Source: Struthio camelus
Lineage: Eukaryota; Chordata; Aves; Struthioniformes; Struthionidae
DNA length: 64,000 bases
Reading direction: 5' to 3'
Assembly (NCBI RefSeq): GCF_040807025.1
Contig: NC_090942.1
Location: 39,448,911 to 39,512,910, forward strand
The translations under genes and the position numbers were made by a program. Below are positions 5,380 through 34,438 of the stretch, piece by piece. The notes below the pieces were generated by a model. It made no database searches. It had not been told where the DNA came from and saw nothing but the letters and a program-made list of their open reading frames with translations. Numbering within the stretch: the first letter of the stretch is position 1; each line of letters opens with the position of its first letter.

Positions 5380-5681
5380 TCACCCAGCAACGGCCGCAAC
5401 GCCTCGCTTCCGGGCGAGGCAACGGCGCTCCGCAGCGCCGAGCCGCCCACGCAGTCGAGCGGCCGAGCTCATCGATGGCCGCCGCCGCTGCCTTGCCCAG
5501 GGGGGCGCTGTGGTGGCGGGCGTGCCCCGAGGGCGGCGGGCGGCGGGCTCCGCGCTCCCCGCCTGCCGCCGAGCCGCTGCAGGGCCGCCGCCGAGGGGCC
5601 AGCAGGGCTGAGGAGATGGGGGGCGCGCCTTGGGGGGCGGCGGCACCGCCGGGCCGCGCCAACGGCCGGCGGCGTAACGGC

Positions 5682-5699
5682 TGCGCGCGCGCGCGCGCG
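5682..5699. repeat. (CG)n dinucleotide run
   Basis: An uninterrupted alternating GCGCGC tract of about 18 bp at the outer edge of the TMBIM4 CpG island. Alternating CG is a potential Z-DNA former. Confidence 0.85.
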
Positions 5700-5765
5700 G
5701 CCTGGTCTTGGGGCTGGGTGAGGAGTGAGCTCGGGGGCCGGAGGGGACGGCGTCGTTTCGTTTGT

Positions 5766-8700: not shown

Positions 8701-8859
8701 TTCTGCAGTATCACATTGTGTGTGTGTGGAATACATGTCTACAAATGTGAATTGAATTCACAGTGTTTGTGATTTAAGGATATAAGCGTGGGGAATTTCT
8801 GCCTGAAAGCTTTGTCTCGGGCTTAGGCTAGCAAAGAACAAAGATACCGCTTCAACTGT
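5766..8859. other. Intergenic, TMBIM4 to IRAK3 relic
   Basis: No gene supported on either strand. It holds an A-rich run with C interruptions (about 5981-6015), which could be a retro-element tail without a recognisable body. Otherwise it is AT-rich unique sequence. Confidence 0.6.
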
Positions 8860-8869
8860 AGCACCAAAG

Positions 8870-8990
8870 GCAGAGTCCCTGAGTTTTCTTCACTTTCATG
8901 AGGTAGGAAAAGAGTCGGATGTGCTGGACATGCAAGAAGGACGGTCTCTCCTGGTGTGGGGCGCGACTGGGCTGGGAGGGATGGGCTGGA
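8870..8990 (+). pseudogene. Possible IRAK3 exon 1 relic
   Basis: Weak candidate. One frame reads ESDVLDMQEG, and the next frame continues DGLSWCGARL. Together they resemble the human exon 1 stretch with AVLDSCDG followed by LGWRGLAERL, requiring one frameshift. Local GC and CpG are raised (to about 9070), as for a former first-exon island. No start codon is assigned. Confidence 0.28.
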
Positions 8991-9869
8991 GCTGCTCACT
9001 CACGCGCCCTCCCGCACGCCTGTCTGCCTTCGCGTTGGCTTCAGCAGCCGCTCTCGGGCTCAGCTCTCCTTAACTGTCTGGTTTTCTTTCTCTTTACAGG
9101 AGTTTCTTTGTTCTTCTTGCTGTTTCCTGTATCCATCTGTCTTTTTCCGGAAGAATATACCTCCTTTCCTCTGTTTTCTCTGTTCTTTTCTGTGATATTA
9201 TTATTCAGTGATCACCAAGCAACACATTGGGATAGTTTAGCTTAAGAAAGAGAGGACTGAAGGGGAGACGTAGGAGTCTTCAAACACTTTACAAAAGGCT
9301 GTTGCAATTCTCCGGCTCTGTAGAAAGTATCAGTTAAGAGGCGGTGTGGCTTAAACCGTAGTAAGGAAAATTCAGGGTGAAAAGTTGAAAACTTTCCAGC
9401 AGTAGGCAGTGTAAAGCAGTGGGATAGTTTGCCTGGGCTTAGGCACAGTTTGAGAGCTAGGAGTTTGCAGGAAACAGACACACCCACGTATGCACTTCCG
9501 GGCACTCACCTTCCCCGTGGAAGATGTTAGTCTGATGTAGGCCCCAAGAAGCAGTAAAGAGCTTATTCAGAAAGGCAAGAGCCAGAGCAGCAAACGATGC
9601 AATGGGGGTTACTCAAAAGTATAATCTGCCAAGGTTGCTGCAGAACGGGAAGGGAAAAATTGTTTACGGCTGTGATACTGATAAACCCTGCAGTTTTCAT
9701 GTCAAAAGAGAGCATCACCCTTGTCTTAAGATTTTTTTCTCTGACTTGCAGGCACAATGCACTGTACAACGAGCGCTGCTTTGGAGTGACTGTACTGAAC
9801 TGAGGTTTAATAACACTGAGTCTCTCTGCCTGGCTGAACGCTTTCAATGTCTATGCAATTTTCCATTCC

Positions 9870-10709
9870 TCACTTTGGAAAGTATACCTTATAAAACGCT
9901 AAATATACCTTATAAAAAGCAAAGTATGTTTTACATTGCCTTTCTCTTCTGTATTTGATGTTTCCATAAACATACCTCCATTGCACTATTTTTATTTGAA
10001 ACCGCTGCAGTCCTACAGTGCCTTGTTTAGAACCGGGGAGACGCCACCACTCGAAGAGCCTGCAGGGGTGAAAGAGCTTTCTGTTCTCCAGGCCCTGCTT
10101 TGGGCTCCTGCGTGAGGAAAAGAAGCTCTTTCTCGCTGAAGCCCTGGTTAAGGAACCATGGACTCCTCTGTGCCTTTTGTCCACGATATGCATAACTTGC
10201 TGGAAAAATTCCATCTGGCACGCGGAGGTACTTGGGGAAGGTACTTGGAGCATTGCCAGGATTCTGCTCCTATCCAGAGGTTTGTTTTTAAATAATTGTG
10301 CCAGAGCCCCTTTGTTTGCTGCGGCTTTGAGCAGTGTTCCCAGAGTGACCCCTCTCAGCATCACTTTGATATACATCTGTGTATCTTCACAGAAGCACGG
10401 CTGTTGTGACGGCAGGACTAAGCCGTCACCCCTCCCCAGCCTGCAAAGTCCATGACCCCTGCGTGCCTCCGTACGAGCGCGTGAGGCATGACTGCTGTAA
10501 TATTGCTGAAGGCGGGGTGTGCCGTTGCAGGAGCGGGTAGTCACAAACGGGGCCCCATGGCTGCCTGCCAGCGTCTCGGCAAGGAGGTAACATCCGGTCA
10601 ACTTGTGTTCAAAACCGTACAGTGCGCGCAGTGCAGCCATGAAGCAATGTGGGGTAACAGAGGAGAGAGGTTCATTTGTCTGATTATATGGGCACATCCA
10701 CCTAGCCAT
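9870..10709 (-). other. 279-codon open frame without recognisable product
   Basis: The longest open frame outside named genes apart from the GC-rich HELB array; begins MARWMCPYNQ. It contains no domain, signal peptide or transmembrane segment I recognise. It lies in a moderately GC-rich patch (10.0-10.6 kb) inside the first intron of the IRAK3 relic. The end of the frame includes a near-duplicate (YFAFYKVYLAFYKVY) caused by a short DNA repeat at 9885-9925. A chance frame or an old unclassified insert is more likely than a gene. Confidence 0.2.
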
Positions 10710-12589
10710 TTATCATTGATTTATCCCAGAATGAACTTTGTCCACTTCATTTCGAAATAGATTATGGAATTTACAGTAGCTGGCTAGTTAAGTTTGAAGG
10801 ATAATTGCGTTGTGTGATCATGAGAAATCTTCATCTGGAGAAACAAGCGTTACAGTGAAATTACCCTCTCACTCAAAATAAGAAGTTCTCTGTGAGAAGT
10901 GGAAACAACCTCACAACTGCAAAGTTCTTCTAAATTATATCTCTAAATGTACAGGACACAGTAGCTGCTAAATTGTAACCACATTCTTACAGGGCAGGAG
11001 AATAACATAAAGAAACTCAGGGACAGATGTGCCATCTGTCTGTTGCTCTAAAATCCCGAATGGTGAATTTTGAAATCCACAAACCAAGGAAAGAGAGTTT
11101 ATCTTCTTTAATATGTGCAGTCTCATGAGAAAGGCTCTACCCTTTAGCAATCAGACGAGCAGGCTGACCTTTCATTATTCCAGGATGAATTAGCTCTCTG
11201 AAAGTTCCTTCAGTTTCCCATACCCCTTAGCTTTGCCTAGTGACACATATATTCTTTTTCCTATTAGGTCTCATCTACATTATAGAATATTTATTTGTAC
11301 ATGACTGCACTGTAACTTGATTAACTCCTCTTTTTTTTTAAATGTTTGCACATTGTTTATAAGACATGCCAGGTTAGGTTTGGGTCTTGGACTCGCAACA
11401 CGCCAGACGTCTCAGATGCACTAAGATATGGGTTATAGCTGGGAACTGAGCTTTCTGGTGGCACCGGGCTATAAATGTGTGGGCTACAAGCCTACCTGCT
11501 AGAGAGCACGATGTGGGAGTTAACTGGCTGCACTGACTGTATATTTGCTCTAAGGACTGTGAATGGCCCTTGAACAGATATTTGAGTTTGAATTATGTGT
11601 TTTTTGTGAACCTCTTTGAATGTAACCAGGGCAGGTATGTTTCCATTTGTAAACATGACTTCAAGGTCAACGTATCTGCAGTTAATAGATTAGTGCTAGT
11701 AGTTAATAATCTAATCCTAGCATTGAAAGTCTTCTCCCAAGGTGTCTGTCCATTTATGTAAGTCTCTTGAATATGTTTCAAGGATGCAATTTTATTTTGA
11801 CAAGCTGAGGTGTTTATATTTTGAGGTCAGGATCAGGCTGAAAGTGCTTTCTTGCCTATTATCCCATCTTTGTTATTCTAGTAAGTGCTGAAGTTGAGAA
11901 AAGAGCGTTACTATTTTATGCCATGTATAAGATTGAATCCTCGGGTAAATACAGAGTGCTACACTGACAGCCCAATTACAGGTATTTCTTCCTTTTTTCT
12001 GTTCTTTTACATGGGGGTGATGTTACAAACTAAACCAATTTAATAGCTGTGCTGCCTTGTGAAATAGAAGGGGTAGCATTCTGGAATTTGTTTATCTCGA
12101 GGAAGCATTGAGCATACCATGGTTTGGGTCTGATATTGTTTTGTTCGATTTCAACTTAGCAGGAAAGACTGCTTGCATTTTGGGAAAGCCACGTGGAATC
12201 TGTTTATAAAAAATTAACTACTCTTTTCATACAAATTCTAGTGTGCTTTAATTGTTTTCTTTGGACAGCCAACATCACCTATAGTGGCTAAAATCATCTA
12301 AAATCTGTGTGTACTTCTGTAAATTAATATATCTAAACCTTTGAGCTTATTTTCTCATTAACGCTTTTAATTCTTAACCATTTTCCCTTGCATTTGGAAA
12401 AGCTGAGGTCAGATTAGCTTATTTCTGTTTCTGAGTGTCTAGGGCAATAGGATCCTGATAAGAACTCCCACGTGTAACAATAATAGTTTGCATGCTGTTA
12501 AAGGAAAAAATCCTAAATTTAAAATAACAATGGCTTTGCAGCTGTTTGTCATGTCTACTCTGCAGAGACTGAAGAGTGGGATTCAGCTC

Positions 12590-12850
12590 TAGCTGAAGAC
12601 AACCGCATTTAGGTGTCTATAAATAGGCATCTACATGAGTGCTAAGTGTCTAAGCAACCATGATTGCCGGTGGAAACAGGGATGGCATTCAGGTACCTAA
12701 ACACAGGTGCCTGGTGCCATTGTATGGCCCTTAGGGTATCTACCTCACCTCTGCTTGCTCCTCCAGAAAGGCACTGGGTTTCTGTGGATCCTCTGCCATA
12801 TCTCCAAAGCCATGCAGATGCCTTAGACACCCAAGAGTTTCCTAAAAGGC
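12590..12850. repeat. Probable old interspersed repeat fragment
   Basis: Repeated short motifs of the type TAGGTGTCTA/GGTACCTAAACA/GGTGCCT occur here. A similar vocabulary reappears at about 41270-41420 (GGCACCTGG, AGGCATCC, AGGTGCC). This suggests two decayed copies of one unnamed repeat family. Confidence 0.3.
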
Positions 12851-13649
12851 ACCACGTGTCAGTGTTGAAGCAATGGCACCCTCCCCCGTAGAGAGCCATT
12901 CAGAGGCCCAGGAATCAGGGGCAAGACAGAGCAGCAGTTTAAAAGTATTGAAGTATATTTACATAAATCTAAAGTGATTGTCTGGTCAGCAAACCTTCTA
13001 ACAAAGGAGTGACTGCATACTGTATTCTCTTCTTGCTTCTAGGGTCTTAATGTAGTTTTGGTTACTAATTCTCCTTTTTCTACTTTCCAAGCAAGATAGT
13101 AGGAATCATTTAGAAGGAAAATGCTTTTGTGGAACAGCCTGTGGTAATGTAATCTGACCGGAGAAATCCAGGAAGAAGTGAATAATGGAAAAAAAAAAGG
13201 GACTATGAAGCACATCAAAATTAGGGGGGCACTGTGATAGCCTGTTAGTATTTGGGAGGCCTAAATAATGCTTGTCAGAGAGTAAGATAATCCGGGTTCC
13301 TAGGCTGTGCTGCCTATATGCAGAAAGTTATACCAAAGTAGTTAAACGAAAGCTGTCCTTGGAAAATGAGCTTAGAAGACAATGACTGCATTTACAAATA
13401 ATTTAAAATAGTTCTCTTTTATTACTAATGTCAACTGCAGCCCCACAGTCAGTCCTTACCACTGTTGGAGAGGACTGCGGTCTCCAGCCCAGCCTCACGC
13501 CCTGCATGGGGCTGGTGCCATTTGGTCACCTCTCCTCCTACTGCTAGTGACTTGCTGCTCCCCAGCTGTCTGCCTAGCTTGGTCCTGCCCTGCACATGCT
13601 GGCCACCTCGCCTGGCCTCACATCACCCTGGCCATATGGGTCCATGAAG

Positions 13650-13862
13650 GGGCGCTGAGTGGTGAGGGGGTGTTGGGAGGTGAGGGGTGATTGAGTGTTG
13701 AGGGTCCATTGAGCAATGAGATGGCTGATGGGTGGTGAGGGACTGTTAGGTCTCACAGGGGCAGTGGATGATGAGAAGGCATTGAGCAGTGAGGGCTTTA
13801 CTGGGCCGTGAGGGGCCAGTGAGTGGTGAGGGGGCAGTGGACAGTGAAGGGCTATTGAGCCA
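13650..13862. repeat. Degenerate minisatellite (about 20-bp unit)
   Basis: Tandem variants of a G-rich unit resembling GGGCCATTGAGTGGTGAG, about ten copies with drifting spacing. It directly abuts the CR1 3' end at 13894. Confidence 0.75.
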
Positions 13863-13893
13863 TGCAGGGCCATTTCCCACTGAGCAGGCTCCT

Positions 13894-14340
13894 TCACAGA
13901 ATCACAGAACAGTTTGAGGTCGGAAGGGACCTCTGGAGATCATCTAGTCCAACCCCCCCGCTTAAGCAGGATGAGCTAGAGGAGGCTGCTGAATACGCTC
14001 TCCAGACGGCTTTTGGATATCTCCAGGTGAGGAGACTCCACAACATCCCTGGGCAACCTGTTCCAGTGCTCAGCCACCCTCACAGTAACGAAATTTTTCC
14101 TTATGCTTGGATGGAACTTACTGTGTTTCAGTTTGCGCCCGTTGCCTCTCGTCCTGTCACAGGGCACCACTGAAAAGAGTCTGGCCTTGTCTGCTCTGTA
14201 CCCTATACTCCCATCAGATATTTAAGTTCGTGGATAAGATCCCTCTCAGTCTTCTCTTCTCCAGGCTAAACAGTCCTAGGTCCCTCAGTCTTTCCTCACA
14301 TGAGAGATGCTCCAGTCCCTTCATCATCTCAGTAGCCCTT
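13894..14340 (-). mobile_element. CR1 LINE, 5'-truncated 3' end
   Basis: On the plus strand it starts with CACAGAATCACAGAAC, then GGAAGGGACCTCTGGAGATC and ATCTAGTCCAACCCCC. This is the reverse complement of the well-known avian CR1 3' terminus. It continues with the usual CR1 text (GGGCAACCTGTTCCAGTGCT, CTTCTCTTCTCCAGGCTAAA) to about 14340. Non-coding remnant, better preserved than the other copies here. Confidence 0.93.
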
Positions 14341-16510
14341 CCTTCCTGCCTTCCTCCTCCCATTCAGGGTCCAGCAGAGAGGGCAGGGGGTGTAGTGGGA
14401 GAAGAAGTGGTGGGATGAGCATGGAGGCACAGGTGGTTTCCTGGGGACAAATGTGTGTCTCGTGTTTGCTGAGAGGAGGGACAGTTGTTCACAGACTTAC
14501 TTGCTGCTTCAAAAGTGTGGATAGAAACTACCTCATGACAGTGGAAAAAATTATCCAACTGCGACTGCACACTCCAATTAAAGTTAAGCTTTCAGTTATG
14601 TAAGGTTCAGCTTTACTGCTGTTGAATTCTAAGGGATGGTCTCCCATCCTGTCCTTTGCCCCAAGGACAGCCTTGGGCCCCTATTTTTCCCATTTTTGCT
14701 TTCCACAGCTCAGCGGCTTTCAAGTGATTTCCTGGAGCTTCACGGCATTGAAAAATACGCAGAGAAAGACAGAAGTGGTCTAAGAGATTTGGTGCTGGTG
14801 AAACAAAACTGTTGACAGTCTGATGCAGGTTCCTCAGGAAATGGGTCGCTGGCAAGCCCTTAAGTTCTTCACAAGGTTAATTATCTACTTGTATGAAGCA
14901 GCCCAGCTTTAAATCTCAGGATGCAGGTGCAAAATATATAGTTACTGCCCGTTTTGCATGAAGGCAGAAACAAAGATCATGACTCCAAACACAGCAAAGT
15001 AACACCACACCATATCAAGCCACCTTTCTTGAACAGCAGCTGAGAAAAGAATACTACAGCACCCTCAATGCAATACTTGGTCCAGGCTATTGCAGCAAAG
15101 GAGAAAAGAGTTGAAGACAGGTCTCTCACCAGTTTCCTACTGTTGATTCCAAAATATTCATATACCATTTTTTTTTATAGACCGTTCCGTGGGAATGTCA
15201 TGTAATCTTTTCATTTTCAGAAACTAACAGGAAGAACAGTGGTTTATGTGTCATCCAGAATTCTGAATAAGCACTATTGGATTTTCAGCTAGATGTTCTT
15301 TTTTAAAATTACTTTTGAATGATGAGCCTCAGAACTACTATCATGTGTTTGTGGTACCTTTGTAGTTATGGGCTGGGCGATCATCATCGTTAAATCCAGC
15401 CTTTTTCCAGTACTCTTGTCTGCATCATCCCCGTTTGTGCTGTTGAAAGTACAATAGATTTGTAATCTTGGTCTTGACTGCTAGTCCGCTGCCATTTGGG
15501 ACCAAAATATCTACTCTGTGGTTAATAAGGGCCAATTTTAGGATATCTGCTGGTTGAATGGGCTGTATCATGTAGCTCCTGTGCAGGTCAGATCTTCCCA
15601 GACAACACAAAAAGGTCCCATGCGAAGATGCCAGCCCAGCTTGGGCGCTCTCTCTCCAGAAAATGAGGAATCTAAGTTGTGTAAACAGGGTAGATGCATA
15701 AGTCCATGCTGAGACATACCCTATATGTCTTGTGCATGTCTTTTGGAGAGCACAACCATATCAAATTGGTAGACTAGGAACATTTATTTAATTTAGAGGA
15801 AACTATTTTTGACAGCAATGTTTGGGTTTAAGCCTCTTTTTGAAATGCGTGATGTAAGCATGCACAGCCAGAATGCAGTGATAGTGCTAGTAATGCTAAG
15901 AAACTGAGTGATTCAGGTACGTATCTGCTGTAAATCCGTGAAGGCTGCCTGAATTTGGCATTTTGTCATCTGTATGAAATTTTACTCACCGTTCTGTAAA
16001 CAGGCATCATCTGAAGCACTCTGCATTATATTACATCCTTATGCATTTATCCAAATAGTGCTTTTGATTTTCAGAGATCCTTGCTGAGAACGATGTATGT
16101 TAATATGATTTTAAAGGATGGTCATCTGTGTATATTAATGAATCAGTCAGTAAAGTGATTGATACATTAAATCGAATACTTCAGATATTAGATGTCAAAT
16201 CTAATTAGAAATCTGATACCTCTGGTAAAATATTAAACTTATTCATTAGTACCTGCCAACAAAATCATTGTAATTATAAATGAACTCCTTTCATAGTGCT
16301 TTCTTGATTCCTGGCCAAAACAAATAATTGTTCATAATTCTTGCGAAAGTACTCTAAAGCACTAGGCTATGTTATAAGTTAGCAGTGATTTTGTAGATAA
16401 TACCACTTTTCCTTAACCGAAAATCGCTGCTAGGGCTGAATTCTGCTTGCTCATCCCTGTGAGGCATCTACAGGGCACAGGGCCAGAAGCAGCAGATAAA
16501 CTATTAACAT

Positions 16511-16556
16511 AATTGTAGTTATTTGTAGTTATTTACGGTTGTTTATAGTTATATAG
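16511..16556. repeat. Short tandem repeat, TGTAGTTATT-like units
   Basis: Four imperfect 9-11 bp units (TGTAGTTATT, TGTAGTTATT, ACGGTTGTTT, ATAGTTATAT) about 200 bp upstream of the death-domain relic. Confidence 0.6.
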
Positions 16557-16749
16557 AAAAGACTAACATGTTCTGACAACAAGTGTCGGGGAACCTAGCC
16601 CTTTACATTCAAACATTCATTTCTCCTTTTTCAAGAATAACTGTCATATGGAGAGAGTCATCTGTCAGCTGCATTCTGAAGCATCAGTGCCAAGGTGTTT
16701 TCCAAGTGTTGCAACTCGGTCTCAAGTCTCCCGTACTCTGTTACATGGT

Positions 16750-16855
16750 AGGACTGAAAAGTCTGGTTTTGCATGGCCATGACACAAGTCGTTCCAGGCA
16801 AAAATTCCAAAAATGGGCACAAAACCACCATAAGCTCCTCTGGCAAATAAAATAA
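16750..16855 (+). pseudogene. IRAK3: IRAK3 death-domain exon relic
   Basis: The open frame reads TSRSRQKFQKWAQNHHKLLW. It aligns with the human death-domain stretch KSGTRELLWSWAQKNK..DLL; the WAQ core, the preceding Ser/Arg and the LL are kept, with about three residues lost. The frame closes at a TAA (16853-16855) shortly after. Upstream residues (VGLKSLVLHGHD) fit only loosely. Position before the kinase relics supports the call, but the exon edges are not defined. Confidence 0.5.
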
Positions 16856-18663
16856 AATACTTTTATAAAAAAACCTTAAAGATCTTCACACAAAGTCAGG
16901 CTCAAAAGCCCTCTACAGTGCCTCTGGGATAGTTCCTTAAATACAAGTAGACTCTCCACAAGCAAACCACACAGGATGGACTTTAACTCCTGGGACTGCC
17001 CAAGCAGACTCCGTGTGAGTTTCCTAGGTCAGTGGAGGGCTTCTTTGCGGAAAATTTCCTTCCCTAAAGCATACCCTCCCTCTGTCACAACCGAGTGGCT
17101 GCACCTCTGTTGTTAAGTCAGAGTCTACCTTATAGTTAAACTACTGATATTTTTGAAGTGCTTTGCAGTACACATGCCCACTCAGATTATTTTGAAGCTC
17201 TCTGTGCTTTTTTGAGAACACAGAATAGGGTTTGAGGTCCATATTTGGGGTTGCTTGAATCAGAATTTTTTGATTTACAGTCCCACCTTTAAAAAAAGGC
17301 TTTCATCTCCAACATTAAACAGTTCTTTCAACAGATTTTGCACGTACTTAGGACTGAAGTTACAGCTTTGCTCTCTCCTAAACTGATTTGTTTATTTGGG
17401 TTTTATATAACGATTTGTTTACAACTAAACTTTATTCCAGGTCAGAAGAAGTGTGTATTGAAAGCACAGCAGGTCATCCTGAAGAACTTCAGGATGAAAT
17501 GGACACTTTCAAAGATGAATTTTAAAAGGCACCATTGTTTTGGTGTAAATCTCTACTGAATAACATGTGCAGATCAGTGTCAGTATGAACTGATGTTCCT
17601 GGGGACTGTTGTGTCTGCTCGCCAAAGGAAGGGGATGGGAACGTAATGGATGGGGCAGGGAGAGGGTATTACCTTTTTGAGTGGCAGACTCTTAAACCAA
17701 TTATAAAGTCACAGTTTTAGTCACTGTTTGGCACAAACTATTTCCTTTGTGGATATCACATGTTATATGATATATAATACTCCTCTGCAGCAGAACTGGA
17801 GCTCTCTCGTACATGCCAGGGTATTGGTAAGCAGTCAGGTACCAGTGTGTGTCCAGTGCAGAGCAGATGACAGAGGTTTAGGATTATCTGGAATATGAAT
17901 TTTCCCTTAAACCTTCTCCAAATTTGTGCTGCTCTGTTAGTCAAGTTCCTCTGAAATTTCCGTGCACCTGAGAAGCTGCACTGATAACTGTTGTGCTAGG
18001 GAAGCACTTAGGAAGCAGTTGATGGTGTCGGTCCCATCTGAGATCATTAGGGGGAAGGAATCCCAGCACAGAGCTCCTCATCCTAAAACACGTCTGTAAC
18101 ATTTTCAGATGGGTATGATTTTGTTGAAGAACTGTGGGGAACAAGAGTTTCTGACCTCATGATATTTTTGTCTTTATAATCCAAAAAAATCAGAGTTGAC
18201 GTTGCATTGCCTGGAAAATGTTGCCTAAACCGTCTTTGTATCCAGTACTCCAGGAAAGAGGGGGCATCATCCATCTAAATTTATTTTGTATTAATGGCAT
18301 TTTAGGGCAATAGTTATTAGGGAACATTTTTGTGTCTACTATGCATTCTAGAAATATGGAACCTGCATCAACCACAGCAAATATCCTGTTGCTTTTTTCA
18401 AGGAGATGGGTAGAAGCAAAGATTAGGGCAAATATTTGTTCTGTTTGGGGTAACTGTTTTAGTGATGGTTATGAGGATCTGGCTACTTGTAGGCAAGAAC
18501 TTTCCAGAGGCCAATTTATAATATACTCATTCTTTTATCTAATATTAATATCATTTTTAATTGAGTTGTGTGGTGCTATATTTGATAAGGTAAGCTATGA
18601 AATTCTAGTGAGTTACGGATAAAAAATATGTAGCTCAACTGTTTCTTTCTCTTTTTCTTTCAG

Positions 18664-18705
18664 GAAAGCATTAGGGTAGTATGCACTCGCGATCTCATCA
18701 TTAAG
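18664..18705 (+). pseudogene. IRAK3: IRAK3 small linker exon (42 nt) with good splice signals
   Basis: A long pyrimidine tract ending in TTTCAG precedes GAAAGC, and AAG|GTAAAA follows. The exon is 14 codons, ESIRVVCTRDLIIK. It weakly resembles human ETANVTVDNVLIPE (E, V, L, I kept), the short segment between the linker and the kinase domain. Splice signals are better kept than the coding content, and position fits. It could instead be an exon of an unrelated non-coding transcript. Confidence 0.45.
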
Positions 18706-20570
18706 GTAAAAAATATTTAAATATGCTTTAATTGACAGTTTCTAGCAGCATCGATGTGGGAAAAGATGCTTTTTTCAGCCACGCATATAATTCTCACTGA
18801 AATTCTTTCTGTAAATAGATTGTTGCTGGGAATATAGTTTGAGAAGCTCACATGCTTCCCTGAAATGTATGTTTCCCATGATGACAATAAATCACAAAAC
18901 TCATGTTAAGTGCCTTCTAGTTCTCAGAATACAAATGTAGATTTTTCTTTCAGAGGCTTACTGTCATTTTGCAACTCTGAGGTCTGTTACTTCTACACAG
19001 AACAGAAAACAAATATAAAACACTGCTGCACTTTTGTGATTGTATATATGTCTTAATTTATCAACAAACTAGCCACATGTAGTTACCATCTGTGGTATCA
19101 TAGATGGTATTTCTAAATACAGACTAACTTTAGCACAGTTTTGTTTTGGTTGTCGGGCTGTAGTTTCACGTCTTAAGGAATGATATCAGCCTAAACAGTA
19201 AATGCATTCAGCCGTTGTACCGCTGTGTCCCATCCCACTGGTAACACCATCCTGAAGTAACAAAGAACAAAGTTTCTATTTTAGTTAGTAAGTCTCTGGG
19301 AATGTGTTTTTCTGTCATAGAAAAATCTTTCACATGAAAAGCTCTTGATTAACAAAACCCCGATCATTTTTCTGACAACAGAGAAAGTGGTTTTATGTAT
19401 CCAAAAGTATTTGTTGCTTTAAAACATGGAAAATGTTTTAAAATTAATATTAAAAATTATGTAAGTTTTAAATATCCAAAAAAAAAAACCAAAAAAAGTT
19501 TTCACTTTCCTGATAAGTCCATAGCCAGTTCAGCAACATCACTCCTGCAGCACAGGCAAGAAAACAGAGCAGCATAGGCCCTTGTTAAATGTCGTGGATG
19601 TTTACACCCAAAGGACAGAAAATCATCCACTGTACCTCCATCAACATAAAAATTATACAGCAAGGAATAATGCTGCTTTGTTTACATCAGTTTATAACTT
19701 AGCATTTGGTTCTTTCTAAAAATGCACTACCACTTCATTATTATTTTTTATTTTTGTCATAAATCTTGTTTTGGAGATTGCAAATGCAGAGACTGAAGAA
19801 GTGGTTTTTGCTGTTAGAACTCAGCACTTTTTGACAGAGCACTGGCTGACACCATCCTCTCAGGAGGGGTCTGGGGGCCTTTAAAGAGGTCAGAAGTAAA
19901 CTCAGAATAATACTCCAGTTGATACTCCAGGCATTGCACCCTGGTGAGGAGAGAGCTTCCCTTTGTGCCGAACTGCAGGAGCCATGCCAAGCTCTCCCAC
20001 CCCCAAAGCCAGAGTTTTTTCTCACGCTTTAACTGTGCGAGGAGAGGGAAGAGTATCAGAAGCAGCTACTCACTGCTTGCTTGAGCCCACAAAGGGCCAT
20101 GGGAAACAAGGAAAGCCGGAGCATCTTTGAGCCTGATCTCATTGGTGCTGGCGATTGCTCGAGAGCTCAAAAATGTGAATAATACAGAAGAGACTTAAAG
20201 TTTCCCATATGTCTTCAACACTGCTCCTGCATTCAGCACAGAAGTAGGTGGTGAATTCCCAGCCCTTGCCAGCGGTGCTGACTCAGGAACACCCTACCGC
20301 TGCTCAGCGTTGCGGTATCTAGAGAGATGGAAAACCCCCTGCAAAACAAGCTCACTTCTCCCTCTGCTTGCTAGGTCTAGAGACCATATAATATTATTCA
20401 GCATCCTTGTCTCACTCTGCTTTCAATTTTTTTTTTTTTATTATTTCTGTGGACACGGCAGTGAGAAGAGTGTAATAACGGTGACAAAAAGGGGGTAAAA
20501 AACATAAGGATTTGTAATTCTCTAAGTGGTTGATAAATAGTGTTCACATTTCTACGAAAAACTTGCACCC

Positions 20571-20699
20571 CAGCTCACAAACATCAGAGACACAACAGAA
20601 AATTTCGGTAAAAACTTGGTGGTTGGACAGGAAAAGTTCTTTGAAGTCTACAAAGTCAATGCTCGGAATCAAACATATGCAATCGAATTTTTGAAGCAG
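20571..20699 (+). pseudogene. IRAK3: IRAK3 kinase N-lobe exon relic (glycine-loop, subdomains I-II)
   Basis: Stop-free for 43 codons: LTNIRDTTENFGKNL, then VVGQEKFFEVYKVN, then ARNQTYAIEFLKQ. It aligns without gaps to human FQNIIEGTRNFHKDF..IGEGEIFEVYRV..QNLTYAVKLFKQ, about 19 of 42 identical. The lysine of the VAIK-like motif is Glu here (YAIEF for YAVKL), which would abolish nucleotide contact. The former donor after CAG is now GGGTGG instead of a GT. The upstream edge may extend to about 20545. Confidence 0.9.
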
Positions 20700-22926
20700 G
20701 GGTGGACTAAAAATATTGCCACCGCATGAAAGCAATGTTGTCTCCTTACTGAGGTTTTGCCTAATATTTCTTTTTTTCTCGGTTTAAACAGTCTTAACTT
20801 TCTCAGGCAATGCATGTAGAACATGGATAAACTGGGACTTCCAGAGAATGGTTTGATCTTGAAGATACTGATGAGATAGTCTACCTACTATTATTTGTGG
20901 CAGTGTTTTTCATCTGCACTAGCTTTATGACTATTACCTGTACAACTTTCAAGGACGTCATTTGGAAGTCTTGGACTGGATCTAACACCAGGTAATGGCA
21001 AAGCAGTCCAAAGTGTGTGAAAAATAGAAATACATATAACAGAAATGATTGTGAAATAAGGCTGAATTTTGGCTTAATATTGACATTTGCATGGTTTAAT
21101 AATGCCTATGTGCATATCATTGCAGAGTATTTCTCCTCCTTGATGTCCAAAACATCCATTTTCTGCATAATTCCTTTCAGGAAAAGTATTTTTTTCTAGC
21201 TTTCTTTATTTGCCAGTGCTTAGGAATACAGAAGCCTAGAGACTCACCTCGTGCGTGATTCAAAGTACGTTAAGGAGCAGCTTGAATATCTTGGAAACAG
21301 TGCTGGTTTGAGCTATAATGTTTCAAACTTCCTGGTCATGTCAAGGTTTGATTTGAGTGCGCTTTAGATAATAGCAGTTTTCCTGAAGGCCCAGTTAAAA
21401 AGAAACATCATGAAACCACATGAAATAACACAGTTTTTCTGAAATTCTGGGTGAATATCTTTAACGATGAGTACAAACCAGGAAAGGGACTTTGAGCCTA
21501 CTCTGCCTGTACTGATGGGAGCTGAGACAGCTATGCAGAAATCAGTAGAAATATGCCTTTGTACTCCATTGTGTGCATGTGCAATCTTTGGGTGCGGACA
21601 GCGGCTACCCCTTGAGCTGGTATGTGCTAGTATGCGTTAGCAGGCGAGGCACGTGGTGTTATATGTAATCTTAGTTTTGTAAGTGTTAAGTTTTATCTGT
21701 TCATTCTGGTGTGGTTTTTGAAGGCTGCTGTGTGACTTTAATGGGAGGAAAATTCTAACTAAATGAACTGAAATTCCACTCCGTAGGATAAATGTTTAGA
21801 ATAGAACAAAAATAGAAGGGATAATTAACTTGCATTTGGCTGTCAAGAGTGCTGTGAATTGGCTGGTGATGTTGAGACGTCAGAGATGACGGAAGATATC
21901 TGCACATGTTTTTATTTAAATTATGTGCATATGGAAATATTGTAATAATTTTCCTGGGTTTTCTTATGCAGTGATGCCTATTACAATTTTATGGACATGA
22001 CTGAGAAACCAAACTCCCTGCTATTGAAGCTAAAGAGACACAAATTTTTTGTATGCTTGTTTTTGGGGGGTACTTGCTGTCAATCTGATTTCTGCTAAAG
22101 ACTGTGTGCTAATTAAAATCTAATTGCACAAGAAATGGTTTTAATTAACATATATACATTTCCACAAAGTGTAGCTTATTAGAACACAGAAGATTACAGC
22201 ACAGCCCACTCCTTTAAATTCCATTTCCATTCGTTATGGAGAGAACATATACTGGCTCTCTTACAGCAGCCCTGGAAGTGCTCTGAATGCAAGAGTGCTT
22301 CTGGGACTTTGTGCCTATCTACAAGCAGAGGAAAAGGAAAATTCTTTGGTATCTTCCCTGGCATATGTTTATTCTTGCCTTTTACTCTGACAAAAGCACC
22401 CCTTCTTGTGCGCTGTGGCCCTGGTATTTAATGTAAGTGAGGCAGATGACTTTGCATTGTCCCTTCACTACGGAGGAATTGCATCCCACATCAGCAAGTC
22501 TGAAGAACATATGTGCATTGTAGCACGCATATTGATTGTATATGTTTCTTGGCTAATATATAGGCAAAACATATGACGAAAGAATGGAAACTGTTTCATT
22601 CAGAACCTGAAGCTTTACAGTTGTGAGCAGATTTTATGTTTTAGCTTTTCCTTTTCACATTACCTTCTTGCCAAGCTGCATGTAAACCTTCTTTGTCTAG
22701 AAAATGTAACCTTTTCAAGAGTCAAATATTCCAGGGGTTAGCTGAAACCGGTCTTAACAGTGCAATTCTTCTGGCTTCGTGCCTATGAAAGTGGTTAATG
22801 GTTGGAATTTATGTCACAGAACACATAATAATTTGTCAGAAGAAACTGGATTCAGTCACAGCACAGGCATTTTTCTCTTCCTGTCATTATAGTTTGTGAG
22901 GACTTACTTATTTCGTACAATCTTAG

Positions 22927-23103
22927 CCCATGTGAAGAAGAAAATGATAAAATTTCTGAATAATTTTTCTGAGAGTACATTTATACTCCAAATGACCTTT
23001 GGAGTAAAATTGAACTATGAGATTTTCCCACATATTTATAGCTATGGCTGTGCATCTTTGCCAGCAAATCTTTCAGACTTTATCCACCAAACATTTATTT
23101 ACA
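22927..23103 (+). pseudogene. IRAK3: IRAK3 kinase N-lobe exon relic (subdomains III-V)
   Basis: Acceptor CAATCTTAG, then HVKKKMIKFL aligns to human QCKKHWKRFL. FILQMTFGVKLNYEIF aligns to NILELAAYFTETEKF, and HIYSYGCASLPANL to LIYPYMRNGTLFDRL (hinge region). A deletion of about five residues lies between the first two blocks. The frame is still open across the whole exon. The donor ACA|GTAAAA at 23104 is plausible but not certain. Confidence 0.72.
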
Positions 23104-25479
23104 GTAAAAAAGCAATTTACACTTGGAACACTGTACAAAGTGATCAAAGGATCATTTGAAGTTAAGCTTTTTTCTGTATTACCCTGAGCCAATGTTATAT
23201 TCAAATTTATAACAAATTCGTAACAAATTTCCCTAAGATGATTGCTTGCTTCATTTAATTCCTGTCTATGTTCCTAACTGTTGTCTGTAAAAGTCATTTT
23301 CCTGAGAATACAATGGCATATATAAAATATCAAGCTGCTTCTTCTACTGAGCAATCATGGATTCAATCTTTCTTATGCTTAGGTTTCTTCTTTCAGGCTT
23401 ACTTGAACTGAAAGGATATTTTTCGGAAAATGGGCTGTTCTGCTTGGTCTACCTTTACGTAATATGCTCTTTTTGAGCAATTACATTGTTTAGTAAGTCA
23501 CACTGCTGTACAACAAGGGAACGCCATGCTGGTAATGACTCTGCTTTATATTAAGAAAGAAATATTATGGAAGTCGTAACTTACAATTAAATGCTGGCAA
23601 TTCCATTTTGTATCAGATGTTATCAATATATTTGCTTATACTAATAGGTAATCTTACCTATAGGTAATTACTTACAGGTAATTAAGAGGTATTTTAATGA
23701 TGATTACATTAAAATACACTCCCAGGGAAAACTGTTTGTCTGGTAAAATTTGACTACTAATGTACTTTTGGTCCAATAATGTGATCTAAATTTGTGTGTA
23801 GGATTTTCTATTATTTTCATCGGAGGCTATGTAGTGCTGTGTTCATCTTGGCATGCCATGGGACACCAGCCGTGCTCCTCAAGTGCTGAACATGCTTGTG
23901 TAAGTTACATTACTTCCATCCTGGACAATGAAATCGATGGAAGCTGGTTCTCAGTTAACATTACTGAATTACACTGCTGAAGAAACCTGGGACATAAAGA
24001 AAAGATGAACAGTTGTGTGCTATGGAATAAAAGCCTCTGTAGAACAATACGTAGGTGTTAGGAAAGTCAAAGTGGACAGAACACGTTCAGTAATACAGTT
24101 GTATTATTGAAGTACAGGATGGAGGAAGTGCTACTCTCAGAAGATTTACATTAACTCATGATTTCCTTGAGCAATGACCGTGAAAATGTGTCAAGGCCCC
24201 AACTCAACAGCATCAGTAAGAGCTATTTTTTCTAAATGTACCTTTAAATCAGGTCTCAAAATATACATTTAAGCACTTTACTGAACTGCGGATTAAAGGT
24301 AACATCTGTGTTATCTTATACACTCGGTTTATGTACCAAAGCTGTTGAAGAGGGTCAAATGGGAGACCATTTATCCTAATTACAATGACGTAAGAGGAGC
24401 AGCAGGGAGTAGGGAAGCAAAAATTCTTTAATCCTGGTGTGTACAGAACAAAAGTATTTTCAGCACCCTTTCAAATGTGTGATTGTGCATAATGTCCCAG
24501 GTCTCTCTCAGTCCTTCTGTAACTGCACTGCAAATGGATTTCCTCTGTCAACATTAGTTGAGAAACCCTTGTTGCCAGTAACTGAAACCTGGAATAGGAA
24601 CAGATTTTTTCTAAGACTAAATGGGCTTTGAGAGCCTCCAGTACAACTCGGCGTAAAACATTCTCCATTATCCATTGGTCTTTGTAACCACCCATCTCTT
24701 CAGTGTCTGTTGTAAGTATTTCTTCTTTGTAAAAGTAAGAAAAAAAATGTGTTGAAAGTCTTGGTATTTCAAATATATTTGTACTTCTTGAATTATATTG
24801 TGATTATCTTGTACTAAGAAAGAGTGATATAAACTTAAGCCCTTTGAATATGTTACCAGGTTATTTCTTGATTTTAACTACAAAATTCAATTGTTTGACG
24901 TTCAATGAAGAAAAACAAAACCGACTATTTAGGAGGAAGGAACGCGTAGTAGACTGTATATCAAAGTGCTCTGGGGAATACCCAGTCTATATTCAAAAAG
25001 TAGGTTAGCAATTATCATATAATTTTTTTTTTTTAGGATTGTGATTTACTGTTGTACTTTTTGAAGTGGAATTTTTGTATTATACAAAGTACATAGTTAC
25101 AGTGCCTGTTTTTAGAGTGACAACTATCCTGACAAACTTGTCTCAATATGTAATTAAGAAGAGCTGAAGCTGTTGAAGCTATGAGAGCATGCTATTGAGC
25201 CGTGCCCTGTCGTCTGTGGCAGTGTAATAAGGTAAATCATAGACATGACATTTCCGTAAATGCTGTATAGTAACGTATACCTGGACACAGAGCAGTAGGA
25301 ACAATCGCAGCATGAAATGTATTTAGAATATAACTGCTCAGTAGAGCATAACCGTTTAATTCTGTTGGAAATTTTTGGTTTTCAAGCACATGGCTAAAAA
25401 ATATCTGGCTTAGTGTTGCCTGGTTGCCTAGTTTTGTGAGGCATTCTTAGTATTATTAACGTAGACACAGTAAAGTGAC

Positions 25480-25625
25480 GCAGGGCTGCATTAGGGGTGT
25501 CCGGGTCCTGAGGGCGCCAGCCACCCTCCCCGGGCCTCTCTCTGCCCAGCCCCATGCCCCACCGCAGCGGCGCCGGCTCCAGCCTCGCCACGGCCCGGCC
25601 CCCGCCCAGCTTCCACCATCCTTTC
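25480..25625. other. Isolated GC-rich, CpG-containing patch
   Basis: About 145 bp of high GC (GGCGCC, CCGCAGCGGCGCCGGC) in an AT-rich intron of the IRAK3 relic. No coding frame or promoter motif is recognised. It may be a small orphan CpG island or the trace of an old insertion. Confidence 0.4.
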
Positions 25626-26021
25626 CAGCAGGAAAACAGCCGTGCTGCAGCAGGCTAAGGACTACAGTAGCATCCGCAGATGTCTGCATCACTGTAGATG
25701 AGCAGCTACAGTAATTTATGAGGTTTCCAGCTTGAGCTGAAGCTACAAGGAAACTGTGTTCTGTCGCCGGGGGGCTGCATGCGTGCAATGTTTTGAGGCT
25801 AGTACTTGAACAACTCAGCTGTGATGGTCCCATGTCAGCTGTGGCCACTTAGACCATTCCATGCATCAGAAAACTGAATTTAGAAATTACGTTTATGACA
25901 GAACTGGCTACAGAAACAGGTGTACGTATAGCAGACCTTACAGCAAAAACAGCTTGTAAATCTTGTTCTTCTTAAGCAGCCTGCAGTGCCTCACTTAATT
26001 TGGCAAATTTGTCCTTTTTAG

Positions 26022-26122
26022 ATACCTTGGGGATTTTCAATAATTGCAGTCAGTGAGGATGCTCAGCCCTTCCATGAACTTCAGAAGGGTGAAACCTTGA
26101 TCCTACGCAAATTTTTGTGAAG
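26022..26122 (+). pseudogene. IRAK3: IRAK3 catalytic-loop exon relic (subdomain VIb)
   Basis: Acceptor CCTTTTTAG. Reads IPWGFSII, then AVSEDAQPFHELQKGETLIL. It aligns with human LPWHIRI..GISKAIHYLHNVQ..VI and, in nucleotide pattern, with the IHGNIKSS-type loop of other IRAKs. A TGA stop at 26118-26120 interrupts the frame, and the donor is AAGCTCAGC with no GT. The 101-nt length gives phase 2, exactly what the next exon needs. Confidence 0.8.
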
Positions 26123-26773
26123 CTCAGCGAGTCTGTGAGTGGAAGTAATAACACACCTACACATGGTTTGTTGTAAATAAGTGGCCGAATTTTGCAATTT
26201 CAGCCATAGTTGAAACTGCATGGCCATTTTAAGTTATATGAATTAAAAAACTGAGCTGGAGTTCATGGAAATAATTTCTAGCTTTTCCACATAACCTAAA
26301 TTCAGGTAAATAGATTTTACAGGAATTCATATACAAAGATTAGCGTTTCATATGAGGCTGAGTGTATGGAATTTGAGGCCAAAAAGAAATTTGGTTTTGG
26401 AAGTTAGAAACAGCTGAAGAGAGAATTTAGAATGGAAGCAACTATTGCCATACATTAGCACTGCACTGCTAAGAATAAATACACTGATCTAGTGTATGGT
26501 TATTGTAAACACGTGCTCAACTTCCAAAACTGTAAGGAATCTCACTGACTATGATAGACTTATTCATCTTATTCTTACAGTGCACGCATAAATGGCTTTG
26601 CTGCACTAGAGCCATAATACACAATAAAATATGTATCTGATGAACAGGAAGAATTTAATGTGTTAGAAAAATGTAAGCACTGAATTTTCTTCACCTAATT
26701 TTTCTCCCTCTCCCCTCCCTCCCTCTGCTCTTCCTTTTTTTCTCATATGTAATAAATATATATACAATTCCAG

Positions 26774-26958
26774 TAAAAACATACTTTTGGATGACCACAA
26801 TCAACCAAAATTATCAGATTTTGCCGTCTTCTCTGTGATCCCCTATGGTACTTCAGAACAGCATTGTAAGCATGGATACTAATAAGTTCTGGAGATGCAA
26901 GCTAGAGAAGTTATTGAAAGAGGGTAAAACAGCTATGGAATAGTATTTATAAACTTTT
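26774..26958 (+). pseudogene. IRAK3: IRAK3 activation-segment exon relic (NILLDD..DFA), frameshifted
   Basis: A long pyrimidine tract and TTCCAG precede it. Frame 1 reads KNILLDDHNQPKLSDFAVF; human has ANILLDDQFQPKLTDFAMAHF, including the IRAK-M-specific DFA in place of DFG. That frame ends at TAA 26880-26882. One frame over, WRCKLEKLLKEGKTAME aligns with human LWYMPEEYIRQGKLSIK and then hits TAG at 26941. So this exon has one frameshift and at least two stops. The former donor is TTTTGTAAAA at the end. Confidence 0.92.
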
Positions 26959-27198
26959 GTAAAAAAAGAAACAAATCTTTTTATCCGATCAAGTCATCAG
27001 ACTGGGTAGGGCGAACTTAATCTTTTCGTAGGATTTGATTTCATGTTAAATATTGTGCAAAGATGTTACTGTTACAAAGATGTAAGCAATAAAGAACAAT
27101 ATTTTCAAAAAATGAAAAAAAGTTAGTTTATTACTCATGATTTATTAGTATTTTATGATCTCAAAAAGTAGCCGAACTTTATTTTGTACTATTTTTAG

Positions 27199-27261
27199 GA
27201 CATAATGGAAGTTTTGACAGGCTGTGAAGCAGAGGTAAAGAGTTCAAAACGCATTCTGTTG
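27199..27261 (+). pseudogene. IRAK3: IRAK3 C-lobe exon relic (IMEVLTGC)
   Basis: 63 nt with intact acceptor (ATTTTTAG) and donor (GTAAGA). Reads DIMEVLTGCEAE, then VKSSKRILL. Aligned gap-free to human IMEVLTGCRVVLDDPKHIQL it keeps 11 of 20 residues, with IMEVLTGC identical. This is kinase subdomain IX, after the DVYSFGI segment. No lesion inside this exon. Confidence 0.93.
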
Positions 27262-27333
27262 GTAAGAGTCACAGTTCAAAAAGGCATGCTATGTTTCTAA
27301 TTCTTTTTTTGAAGTAATTCCTACTTTTTCTAG

Positions 27334-27443
27334 AGATAGAGATGTGATGGCAGATGTGATGGAGAAGAGTAGCTTTGATTCCTGCCTTGCAAGTGCTTGG
27401 ACTAGCATTTCAATGCACCTTATATGTAAAGCTGAGGCCCACA
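27334..27443 (+). pseudogene. IRAK3: IRAK3 C-lobe exon relic (MEK..DSCL)
   Basis: Acceptor CTTTTTCTAG. Reads DRDVMADVMEKSSFDSCL; human RDLLRELMEKRGLDSCL. Then SISMHLICKAEAH against human NFSAKLFCLAGRC, after a deletion of about seven residues. The entry phase is off by one base relative to the preceding exon, a further sign of decay. The frame runs on open to 27763 without recognisable sequence. Confidence 0.85.
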
Positions 27444-28008
27444 GTGGGGAGAAGTTTGTATCAGAGGGTAACTTTTATGTTAAAAATGATATCTTACCAC
27501 AGGGAGAGAAAGCCAAGAACAGGATCAAGCTGGGCACAAATGACAGCATGGCTTGTGCCATGAAGAGATTACAGTCAATTAACAGCAATAGAAGATGTGG
27601 ATATGATCAAATATATATAGTATCAGCATTTATATTTAGTGGTCTTTTCAAAACCCCCATGCATTTTCCCCAGCTGCCTCTCTTTCACATGCTCTCTCAG
27701 GACCCTGTGGACTCAGGTACCGGTATGGCTAGTGTGCTGCTCGACACAGAGGTCTGTGTGTGAGGGTGGAAGAGCTCCCTGCCTTGCTGTAGATGCTCTG
27801 GAACAGTGCGTGTGGACCCTGGGCTCTGCAAGAGTTATCTAGCATCCTGGCTAGACAGACTGCAGGCATTGTGGAATACCTTCCCTTTAGCTGGTTGTTT
27901 TGCTATTCTCAAGTTAGATTAAGGTAGAAGCAGCTAAAAATGTTTTTGCATGTGGAGATCAAATAGATCACAAAGCTACAAAGACCTATGAAGACACAAG
28001 TGGCTTCA

Positions 28009-28482
28009 GGATCATGGAATCATGGGATAATTTGGTCTGGAAAGGACTGCAAGAGCTGTCTAGTCCAAACTCCTGTTCAAAGCAGGGTCAGCTGTGAGGT
28101 CAGACCAAAAATCTCCAAGCATGCAGACTGCACAACCTCTCTGGGCAACCTGTAGCCTAGCCACGGTGAAAAAGATTTTCCTTATATTCAGTCTGAACCT
28201 CGTTTCAACCTATGCCAGTTGTCTCTCGTCCTTCTAGTGTGCACCACAGTGAAGAGCCTGTCTCTGCCTTCCTGATAACCTCTTCACAAGTACTGACTAC
28301 TGCTTTTAAGTCCTCCTGAAGCCACCACTTTTCCAGGCTGAACAAGCTCAGCTCCCTCAGCCTATCTGCACAGAGCAAGTGCTCCAGCACCAACTGTTTG
28401 TGGCCCTCTGCTGAACTAGCTCTGGCTTATAGATGCCTTTCTTGTATTGGGGCCAAAACTGGCTGCAGTATTCTAGTCTAAA
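28009..28482 (-). mobile_element. CR1 LINE 3' fragment, old
   Basis: Plus-strand text GATCATGGAATCATGGGATA, GGAAAGGACTGCAAGAGC and GGGCAACCTGTAGC, then CAGGCTGAACAAGCTCAGC, is the reverse complement of a CR1 3' end. It diverges much more than the 13.9-kb copy. It lies in the last intron of the IRAK3 relic. Confidence 0.88.
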
Positions 28483-29625
28483 AAAAGATTTATTTCCAGT
28501 TGGATCAGTTCTCTGATCTGGCTCAACTGGAGGATGCAAAAGCATGAGTGTCAGCAGAATACAAGGAGAAGCTATGTGCTGATGCAGGCAGTGAGCGGGG
28601 AAGAACTGCTCTTTTTGGCAGCAGTGTGTGCTGAGGACAACTTATACCAGTAAGTGTTCATGGCACAGCTCTTGTGTGGAGTTGGAAAAGATGGTTGAGT
28701 CGCTCTGTCAGCCTGGGGCTGCCAATGGGGACCATCACTTCTCCTCGCATTGGCAAGGCTCTTCTGGCAGCAGCAAGCAGTTAAATGAGCTTGGGTTCCC
28801 TTGTCTAACTACACCCCAATTTTTGTACAACCCCTTCCACACTGTGGTTGTATTTCCAGGGGAAAACCTCAGATGGCAGCAGCATTATAACTTTGATAAC
28901 CAGTCCTAATCTTAGCACATTCTTTCTTGTGCCACCAGTTACTGGAATTTGTTAACAAGGGCCTTTGTGCTTAACAACAATATTAGCAAATCATCAGCCT
29001 ATTGAAGAGGAAAAGTGTTCTTTCCTGCCTGATTTAGTGATATGCATATCTCTCGTGGAAGTCCTTCAATATCCATTTTCATGTATTCATGCAAATGATA
29101 CAAATTTTTATATATTCATGTAAATAAGATGAATACATAGAACATACTAGTGGCTCCTGCTGGGGACTAGACGTGATGGTAGCTAATTATTTTGTGTTGA
29201 TAGGGTGTTTGAGTCGAGTTAAACCTCTTAGAACTCTCTCTGAGAGATTTTATGTCTATTTTAAGCTAGACAGTTGTCCATTTGCTGATTTCTTGTATGT
29301 GACCAAAAAGGAGAGAAGATATTTAAAGCATCACTAAAAGGTGAGTAGAGAATACGGTAGGATGGAATTTGGTAGCAGAACAAGAAAAAAAGTTGAAAGG
29401 AATAATCATGAGAGGTGTAGGCAATCAGAGGGAGAATGCTTAAGGGAGGGAAAAGGGTGAACCTGATAGAAATAAGAGTTGTTTCCCGCAGCTCACCTCC
29501 TGGGCTCTTGTACAGCGGCTGTTTTCCTGCACTGTTTCAACATATAATGTGGTGAAGATTAGCTCTGTGGTTTGCTTCCTTGTCACTTACTATGGCTCTG
29601 TCTCTACAGCTGATTGTTTTTTTAG

Positions 29626-30047
29626 GCATTGGACACTAGAAAATTCTCTCTATACTTTGAGTTTCACTGACAGTCAGCCAAGATCATTAATGTTTCCTCT
29701 TTCAGACTTCTGCCATTAAAGCATTCCTGTGGAAAATGATGAGCAGCAAGATTATCTGTTCTCTCCTCTGAAAACAGACAATAGAGCAAAGAACACTTCT
29801 CTTGAGCATAATGTATTGAAATCACGTTCCTGCAATTGAATAGAAAAAAAAAAAAAAAGGTTTGGCAGAACATATTATATTGCCAAGGAACAGAATTTTC
29901 ATTGAAAAGGGACTGGTAACAGGTCATTTTTTCAACCCAGACCTGAAAAGTCTGTTCTTCCTGATACCCACCAGAGCTTCTGATCTTCTGTTACTAGAAT
30001 GTAGCATTAAAACAAGATTGTTATGGTCTTGTGGGAGTGAAGAATGA
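29626..30047 (+). pseudogene. IRAK3: IRAK3 last-exon relic (C-terminal tail)
   Basis: Acceptor TTTTTTTAG. Reads TLENSLYTLSFTDSQPRSL, which aligns gap-free with human TLESTQASLYFAEDPPTSL (8 of 19). After a short deletion it reads FPLSDFCH-stop-SIPVENDEQQ, against human SPLFLENVPSIPVEDDESQ. The stop is TAA at 29717-29719, in the same frame on both sides; a second stop, TGA, is at 29837-29839. Further on, EHIILPRN resembles human KYIVPSQD, and ECSIK recalls the SSCSSK near the C-terminus. The right edge is approximate. Confidence 0.85.
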
Positions 30048-33987: not shown

Positions 33988-34411
33988 GCACTATTTTCTT
34001 CCTAAGTCCATGCTGATTGCATTCATGATGTAATCCTCCAAGTCGAGAGCCAAAAACAGGTTCAGCACTACAGTGACAGAAAGCCAGAGAATCTGCAGGT
34101 CTGCATTAGTCTGTGAGACTTCAGAAGACCACTGTAAAATTACAGTATCTCCTAGCAATCACTGGTGGAATATAACAAAATCCAACAAAAGATTTTTTCA
34201 GCTCCAGATGCCAAAGATCTCTTTTGTCAAATTAAGCTGGGTGCAGGAAGGAATTACCTGGCAGCCTTTTAGCCCTGCATGTGCAGGGGCTGTGATTCAG
34301 AAAGCCCTTGGGAAAGTCAGTCATTCCGATTCTCTGATTCTGATGAAGCCCTAGAGGGTCTGCCTGGGACAAAAGTCACAGAAGATGATCTTTCATAACA
34401 GAGTTGGGAAG

Positions 34412-34438
34412 AACAAAAACAAAAACAAAAACAAAAAA
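34412..34438. repeat. (CAAAA)n microsatellite
   Basis: Four to five ACAAAA units in a row. No gene context. Confidence 0.8.

Follow-up and report, generated by a model that had tools for sequence, protein, structure and literature searches.

The interval between TMBIM4 and HELB in the ostrich, Struthio camelus, raises the question of whether this bird has truly lost IRAK3, the gene for the pseudokinase IRAK-M, or whether the gene is merely missing from the assembly. The window analysed here is a whole stretch of 64,000 nucleotides, C1:39448911-39512910 of a 1.45-Gb ostrich assembly (C-numbers denote assembly contigs), and the material throughout was the sequence of this one assembly. An initial annotation of the window had proposed an IRAK3 relic between TMBIM4 and HELB, and its identity, position, strand, order and disablement were borne out by tblastn, by a profile chain and by the flanking genes. 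Very probably, what lies between the two genes is the IRAK3 locus of the ostrich, now a unitary pseudogene, and the loss of the gene is real rather than an assembly gap.

The IRAK3 query was the human sequence, of which residues 1-119 and 141-455 were verified against PDB 5UKE, 6ZIW and 6RUU. A profile of 52 proteins, comprising human IRAK3 and 51 of the 120 mammalian matches listed, was run over the window in six frames; the underlying protein search, in which 946 matches passed and 120 were listed, gave only mammalian names besides three unnamed entries and has no bearing on birds. The scan returned nine collinear plus-strand matches across eight exons, which together formed a chain of 100.5 bits. 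Chance chains reached 7.5 bits at best with no more than three matches in 60 dinucleotide shuffles, and the reversed window gave 5.2 bits. The matches lay at 14705-14876 (profile residues 44-73 and 73-104), 20571 (154-207), 23357 (210-257), 25188 (282-295), 26769 (295-319), 27202 (364-383), 27332 (382-401) and 29636 (443-501). A further plus-strand match at 34306-34506 scored 3.4 bits against the part of the profile that also matches exon 12; it was discarded as a chance match.

Together with splice sites and reading phase, these matches defined nine exon relics, in order on the plus strand between 14709 and 29838. The exon numbers assume a gene of 12 exons, a count inferred from comparison with ostrich IRAK2 and from the human gene structure.

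14709..14875, plus strand: E2 (death domain); acceptor AG and donor GT kept; TGA at 14799; two length changes shift the frame.
20574..20699, plus strand: E5 (G-loop, with F177); acceptor AG still present; GT gone at the donor (CAG followed by GGGTGG).
22564..22622, plus strand: E6, probable (alpha-C region, W206 kept); directly after an acceptor; gtgagc donor; phase 2 end kept.
23383..23512, plus strand: E7; acceptor kept; TGA at 23474.
25188..25231, plus strand: E8, 3' part (CGS motif); donor AG followed by gtaaat kept, phase 2; TGA at 25182 just upstream in frame.
26774..26885, plus strand: E9, 5' part (DFA motif); acceptor kept; tandem TAA TAA at 26880-26885.
27199..27261, plus strand: E10 (IMEVLTGC), 21 codons; acceptor and donor both kept.
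27338..27446, plus strand: E11 (MEK..DSCL); acceptor AG displaced by 4 nucleotides; residues about 402-419 missing.
29626..29838, plus strand: E12, 5' part (SIPVE); acceptor kept; TAA at 29717.

The relic exons extend across 15 kb and still have introns and splice sites between them, showing the pseudogene to be unprocessed and at the ancestral locus. The initial annotation had counted eight relics; eight are carried by the profile, and the ninth, E6, was added on its splice sites and phase. The five motifs that it had quoted were all found on the plus strand in human protein order, namely EKFFEVYKV in E5, NILLDD..QPKLSDFA in E9, IMEVLTGC in E10, MEK..DSCL in E11 and SIPVE in E12. It had set the beginning of the relic at 8870; the supported relic begins at 14709, and nothing resembling exon 1 was seen on the plus strand in 5400-14710.

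The strength of the individual matches varied. E5 gave the highest score (36.0 bits; tblastn E 8e-7, 45%), and its DNA occurs as a single copy in the genome. E2 was matched by two tblastn segments in different frames, covering human residues 45-73 and 73-103 (E 6e-7; 10.9 and 10.5 bits in the profile), and is a net 11 nucleotides short, in two steps. E7 (12.9 bits; E 0.003) and the 5' part of E9 (15.4 bits; E 0.001) were likewise recognised by both methods. E10 scored 3.2 bits in the profile and 55% over 20 residues by tblastn (E 0.005 as a group), and its length and phase are those of the ostrich IRAK2 exon. E11 reached 3.5 bits and 50% over 18 residues, its part at 27399-27446 being matched by 6 of 200 shuffles. 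E12 gave 5.3 bits and a tblastn E of 0.16, and a distal stretch of it at 29818 gave 6.3 bits, a score attained by one shuffle in 200. For the 3' part of E8, 2.8 bits were accompanied by 7 of 13 identical residues (E 0.21) and by the same phase as in IRAK2. E6 is weak by score (9 of 15 identical, E 16; 2.8 bits in the targeted scan, with 8 of 200 shuffles as high) and shares its phase and its gtgagc donor with live ostrich IRAK2. In targeted scans the 5' part of E8 went unrecognised, 194 of 200 shuffles scoring no lower, and the distal part of E9, the activation segment, was not recovered (17 of 200). Between E11 and E12, at about 28000-28400, lies a stretch that resembles a CR1-type retroelement.

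That the relic belongs to IRAK3 and to no other family member was examined with 11 pieces, in a comparison that covered IRAK1, IRAK2 and IRAK3 (IRAK4, found elsewhere in the genome, was left out). IRAK3 was best in all 11, with a summed score of 648 as against 345 for human IRAK1, 335 for ostrich IRAK2 and 311 for human IRAK2. Over these pieces 126 of 246 aligned residues (51%) equal human IRAK3, a figure biased upward by the choice of pieces for matching. When the PDB was searched, E5 found IRAK3 first (E 5.3e-6, compared with 0.17 for IRAK1), E9 found IRAK3 first (E 0.035, ahead of a photosystem chain with E 0.053), and IRAK3 was the sole match for the first half of E2 (E 0.18). The relic also keeps three active-site deviations typical of IRAK3, namely F177 (GQEKFFEVY), CGS (VVCGSV) and DFA in place of DFG (LSDFA), which are described as conserved in vertebrates in the available part of PMC7955167. 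Live ostrich IRAK2 has matching phases at the E6/E7 and E8/E9 junctions, a matching E6 acceptor and an E10 that agrees at either end; this comparison leaves out E1, E3, E4 and the donors of E7 and E9. In ostrich IRAK2 itself, the boundary of exon 5 and its intron reads GAG followed by gcaagt (stretch L023, about 6873, minus strand), an apparent GC-AG intron.

The ostrich IRAK3 locus has no continuous reading frame. In-frame stops fall within supported exons at 14799, 23474, 26880, 26883 and 29717. Among the four stops named by the initial annotation, those at 26880 and 29717 stand in supported exon frames, and those at 26118 and 26941 exist outside any supported exon. It had named one frameshift; judged by eye, the changes of frame comprise the two length changes in E2, a probable shift in E8 and the displaced acceptor of E11. 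It had also named lost donors; the donor of E5 is lost, and GT survives at E2, E6, E8 and E10. The locus cannot make IRAK-M. The earlier wording, that it cannot make a kinase, framed the matter wrongly, as IRAK3 is a pseudokinase and the point is the lack of IRAK-M.

When human IRAK3 was searched against the window by tblastn and against the whole assembly, as the initial annotation had suggested, the relics were found in the window and no second IRAK3 was found with this query, which detects the live IRAK genes. The assembly-wide search gave 32 matches, of which 10 fell in four IRAK places:

C1:34.60 Mb: IRAK4, 3 matches; in the PDB, IRAK4 chains rank first for a 63-residue piece (E 4e-26).
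C14:0.87-0.88 Mb: IRAK2, 4 matches; IRAK2 by tblastn.
C38:0.14 Mb: IRAK1, 2 matches; best PDB match IRAK1 6BFN (E 2.3e-15).
The window: the E5 relic, 1 match (E 0.012).

Within the completeness of the assembly and the sensitivity of the search, no functional copy was found elsewhere. The IRAK1 kinase-domain and C-terminal exons lie at C38:136000-145900, on a small contig (824,070 bases) rich in GC; tblastn over this region gave 30 rows, many of them proline-rich chance matches, and no IRAK1 death-domain exon was seen in the 9.9 kb examined. As a separate observation, kinase matches were often paired on C40 and C41 with equal or near-equal scores and a fairly constant offset, as for weakly differentiated Z and W chromosomes or two haplotypes.

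The relic lies on the plus strand between two neighbours, TMBIM4 on the minus strand and HELB on the plus strand, the position and orientation of IRAK3 in the human order TMBIM4-IRAK3-HELB. Human sequences of both neighbours served as tblastn queries.

1117..5339, minus strand: TMBIM4 (left neighbour); first exons at 5339-5244, 3563-3453 and 2187-2083 and part of another to 1117; the remainder lies left of the window.
54704..63686, plus strand: HELB (right neighbour); exons at 54704, 57539, 59132, 62505 and 63531; continues right of the window.

Three TMBIM4 exons in the window matched at 66-84% identity and one weakly (E 0.26); residues 111-238 were matched in the DNA to the left, so that residues 1-238 were found altogether, in pieces. 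The only stop within the TMBIM4 match of the window falls in the intron before an exon. HELB was matched over human residues 61-667 inside the window and 666-972 in the DNA just to the right, residues 1-60 and 973-1087 having no tblastn match in the window and the adjoining right DNA. The joined HELB of 881 residues is 99% identical over its full length to that of Struthio camelus australis, 92% over 76% to that of Apteryx mantelli and 90% to that of the emu. The matched exons of both genes are free of stops. Two weak HELB matches, at 29486-29397 (E 0.91) and 60297 (E 0.047), were dropped as chance. A GC-rich minisatellite lies at 52678-52957, upstream of the first detected HELB exon; it comprises 3.9 copies of a 70-bp unit with 100% matches and can also be parsed into units of 35 bp.

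Several observations weigh against reading the locus as a dead IRAK3. Four of the nine relic matches (2.8, 3.2, 3.5 and 5.3 bits) score below the best single shuffle match of 7.5 bits, so that their support comes from order, strand and splice sites. A targeted profile scan of the plus strand over 5400-14710 detected no exon 1, its score being reached by 181 of 200 shuffles, and exons 3-4 likewise went undetected in a targeted scan (114 of 200). The evidence is the assembled sequence. Ten of the 32 genome matches were assigned to genes, and the other 22 were judged by spacing, none of them pairing within 100 kb as would be expected for an intact IRAK3; the search saw just one of the nine relic exons (E5), so that a second decayed copy could be missed.

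These points can be set against the other explanations of the locus. The shortness of several pieces speaks for chance resemblance to kinases, or for an origin from another IRAK gene; this is hardly credible, given the chain of 100.5 bits compared with no more than 7.5 bits, a test that excludes the chance reading, and given that IRAK3 is best in all 11 pieces. Assembly errors in a working gene, which would fit with lesions being read from assembled sequence rather than from raw reads, are about as implausible: the lesions are distributed across many exons, exons 1, 3 and 4 cannot be recognised at all, nor can parts of exons 8, 9 and 11, and the matched exons of neighbouring genes in the same assembly are stop-free. 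A little less remote, and still very improbable, is that the relic is a dead duplicate and that a working IRAK3 resides elsewhere, for example on a GC-rich, poorly assembling dot chromosome. Hidden genes of this kind are real, as IRAK1, supposedly absent in birds, is present on the 824-kb contig. The relic, however, stands at the ancestral position, which marks it as the ortholog, and a genome search that recovered exons of IRAK1, IRAK2 and IRAK4 with the IRAK3 query returned no other IRAK3-like gene. Decay of IRAK3 in place remains the preferred reading. The gene is unprocessed, stands between its ancestral neighbours and retains intron positions and splice phases; gone are the reading frame, one splice donor and any recognisable form of several exons, and no replacement copy was found in the assembly.

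The relic at the old locus shows that the lineage which gave rise to birds once carried IRAK3, and for the ostrich it settles the matter of IRAK-M: the gene existed and then died. Since the gene is reported absent from Aves, parsimony would place the loss before the palaeognath-neognath split. We rather favour a single loss of IRAK-M in the stem of living birds, with IRAK1 kept on a small GC-rich chromosome. An independent and later loss in the ostrich lineage is possible though unlikely; the lesions are known here from a single bird locus, that of the ostrich, while the report, in the available part of PMC3498205, that Aves lack IRAKM makes one older loss the simpler account. The ostrich would then make no IRAK-M protein while it has IRAK4, IRAK1 and IRAK2, and on the simplest model its Myddosome would work without a pseudokinase brake, restraint presumably being provided by other regulators. 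If the stem loss is true, all birds would run Toll-like receptor/interleukin-1 receptor (TLR/IL-1R) signalling with IRAK4, IRAK1 and IRAK2 and without this brake, a clade-wide change in the limiting of inflammation and in endotoxin tolerance. Loss of IRAK3 in the mouse is reported to heighten inflammation, with the proviso that a splice variant may still be produced in a knockout line that is in wide use (PMC7955167, in the part available). How birds limit endotoxin responses without IRAK-M is the clade-level question that this locus opens.

Whether the loss had already been described was left open by the initial annotation. The absence of IRAKM from birds is in print: according to the portions available, Gosu et al. 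2012 (PLoS One; PMC3498205) report Aves without IRAK1 and IRAKM, and reptiles and amphibians without IRAKM, as absence from the sequences surveyed. Lange et al. 2021 (PMC7955167), again in the part available, place IRAK3 throughout vertebrates on the basis of 134 orthologues. The two sources, to that extent, disagree on IRAK3 in non-mammalian tetrapods, and the relic supports the wider distribution; it is evidence against a view of IRAK-M as essentially mammalian. When the E5 relic piece was used as a protein query, it gave no candidate reptile or bird IRAK3. The absence of IRAK1, as stated in the available text of PMC3498205, does not hold for the ostrich genome, in which IRAK1 is present, so that the other half of the published statement on Aves is corrected for the ostrich. 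Claims of gene absence in birds have often been wrong, GC-rich genes having been missed (PMC5470226 and PMC9516821, from the passages available). In the literature searched, no description appeared of the IRAK3 relic, of its lesions or of the contrast with retained IRAK1; subscription papers and supplements lay mostly outside this scope, and an earlier description is possible. IRAK genes are unmentioned in the main text of a survey from 2026 on gene loss in birds, for which an ostrich assembly was used (PMC12954441, by term search), the term IRAK is absent from PMC10700341 and PMC8449477, and bird IRAK3 is not treated in the available parts of PMC9573974 and PMC6763605.

Among known systems, the finding resembles that of PMC3498205 in that IRAKM is absent in birds, and differs from it in that the available part of that paper gives an absence from surveyed sequences and describes no relic. 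Mammalian IRAK3, encoding the death domain and pseudokinase of IRAK-M, shares with the ostrich relic F177, CGS, DFA and the position between TMBIM4 and HELB; the mammalian gene is intact, whereas in the ostrich no continuous reading frame runs through the locus. Among precedents, STK33 comes closest: like ostrich IRAK3, it is a kinase-family gene that decayed in place in birds. In the accessible part of Lautwein et al. 2015 (PMC4509753), STK33 is a unitary pseudogene in neognath birds, with deletions, insertions/deletions and stops at the ancestral locus. According to the same part, STK33 is intact in palaeognaths, including the ostrich, whereas IRAK3 is dead in the ostrich itself.

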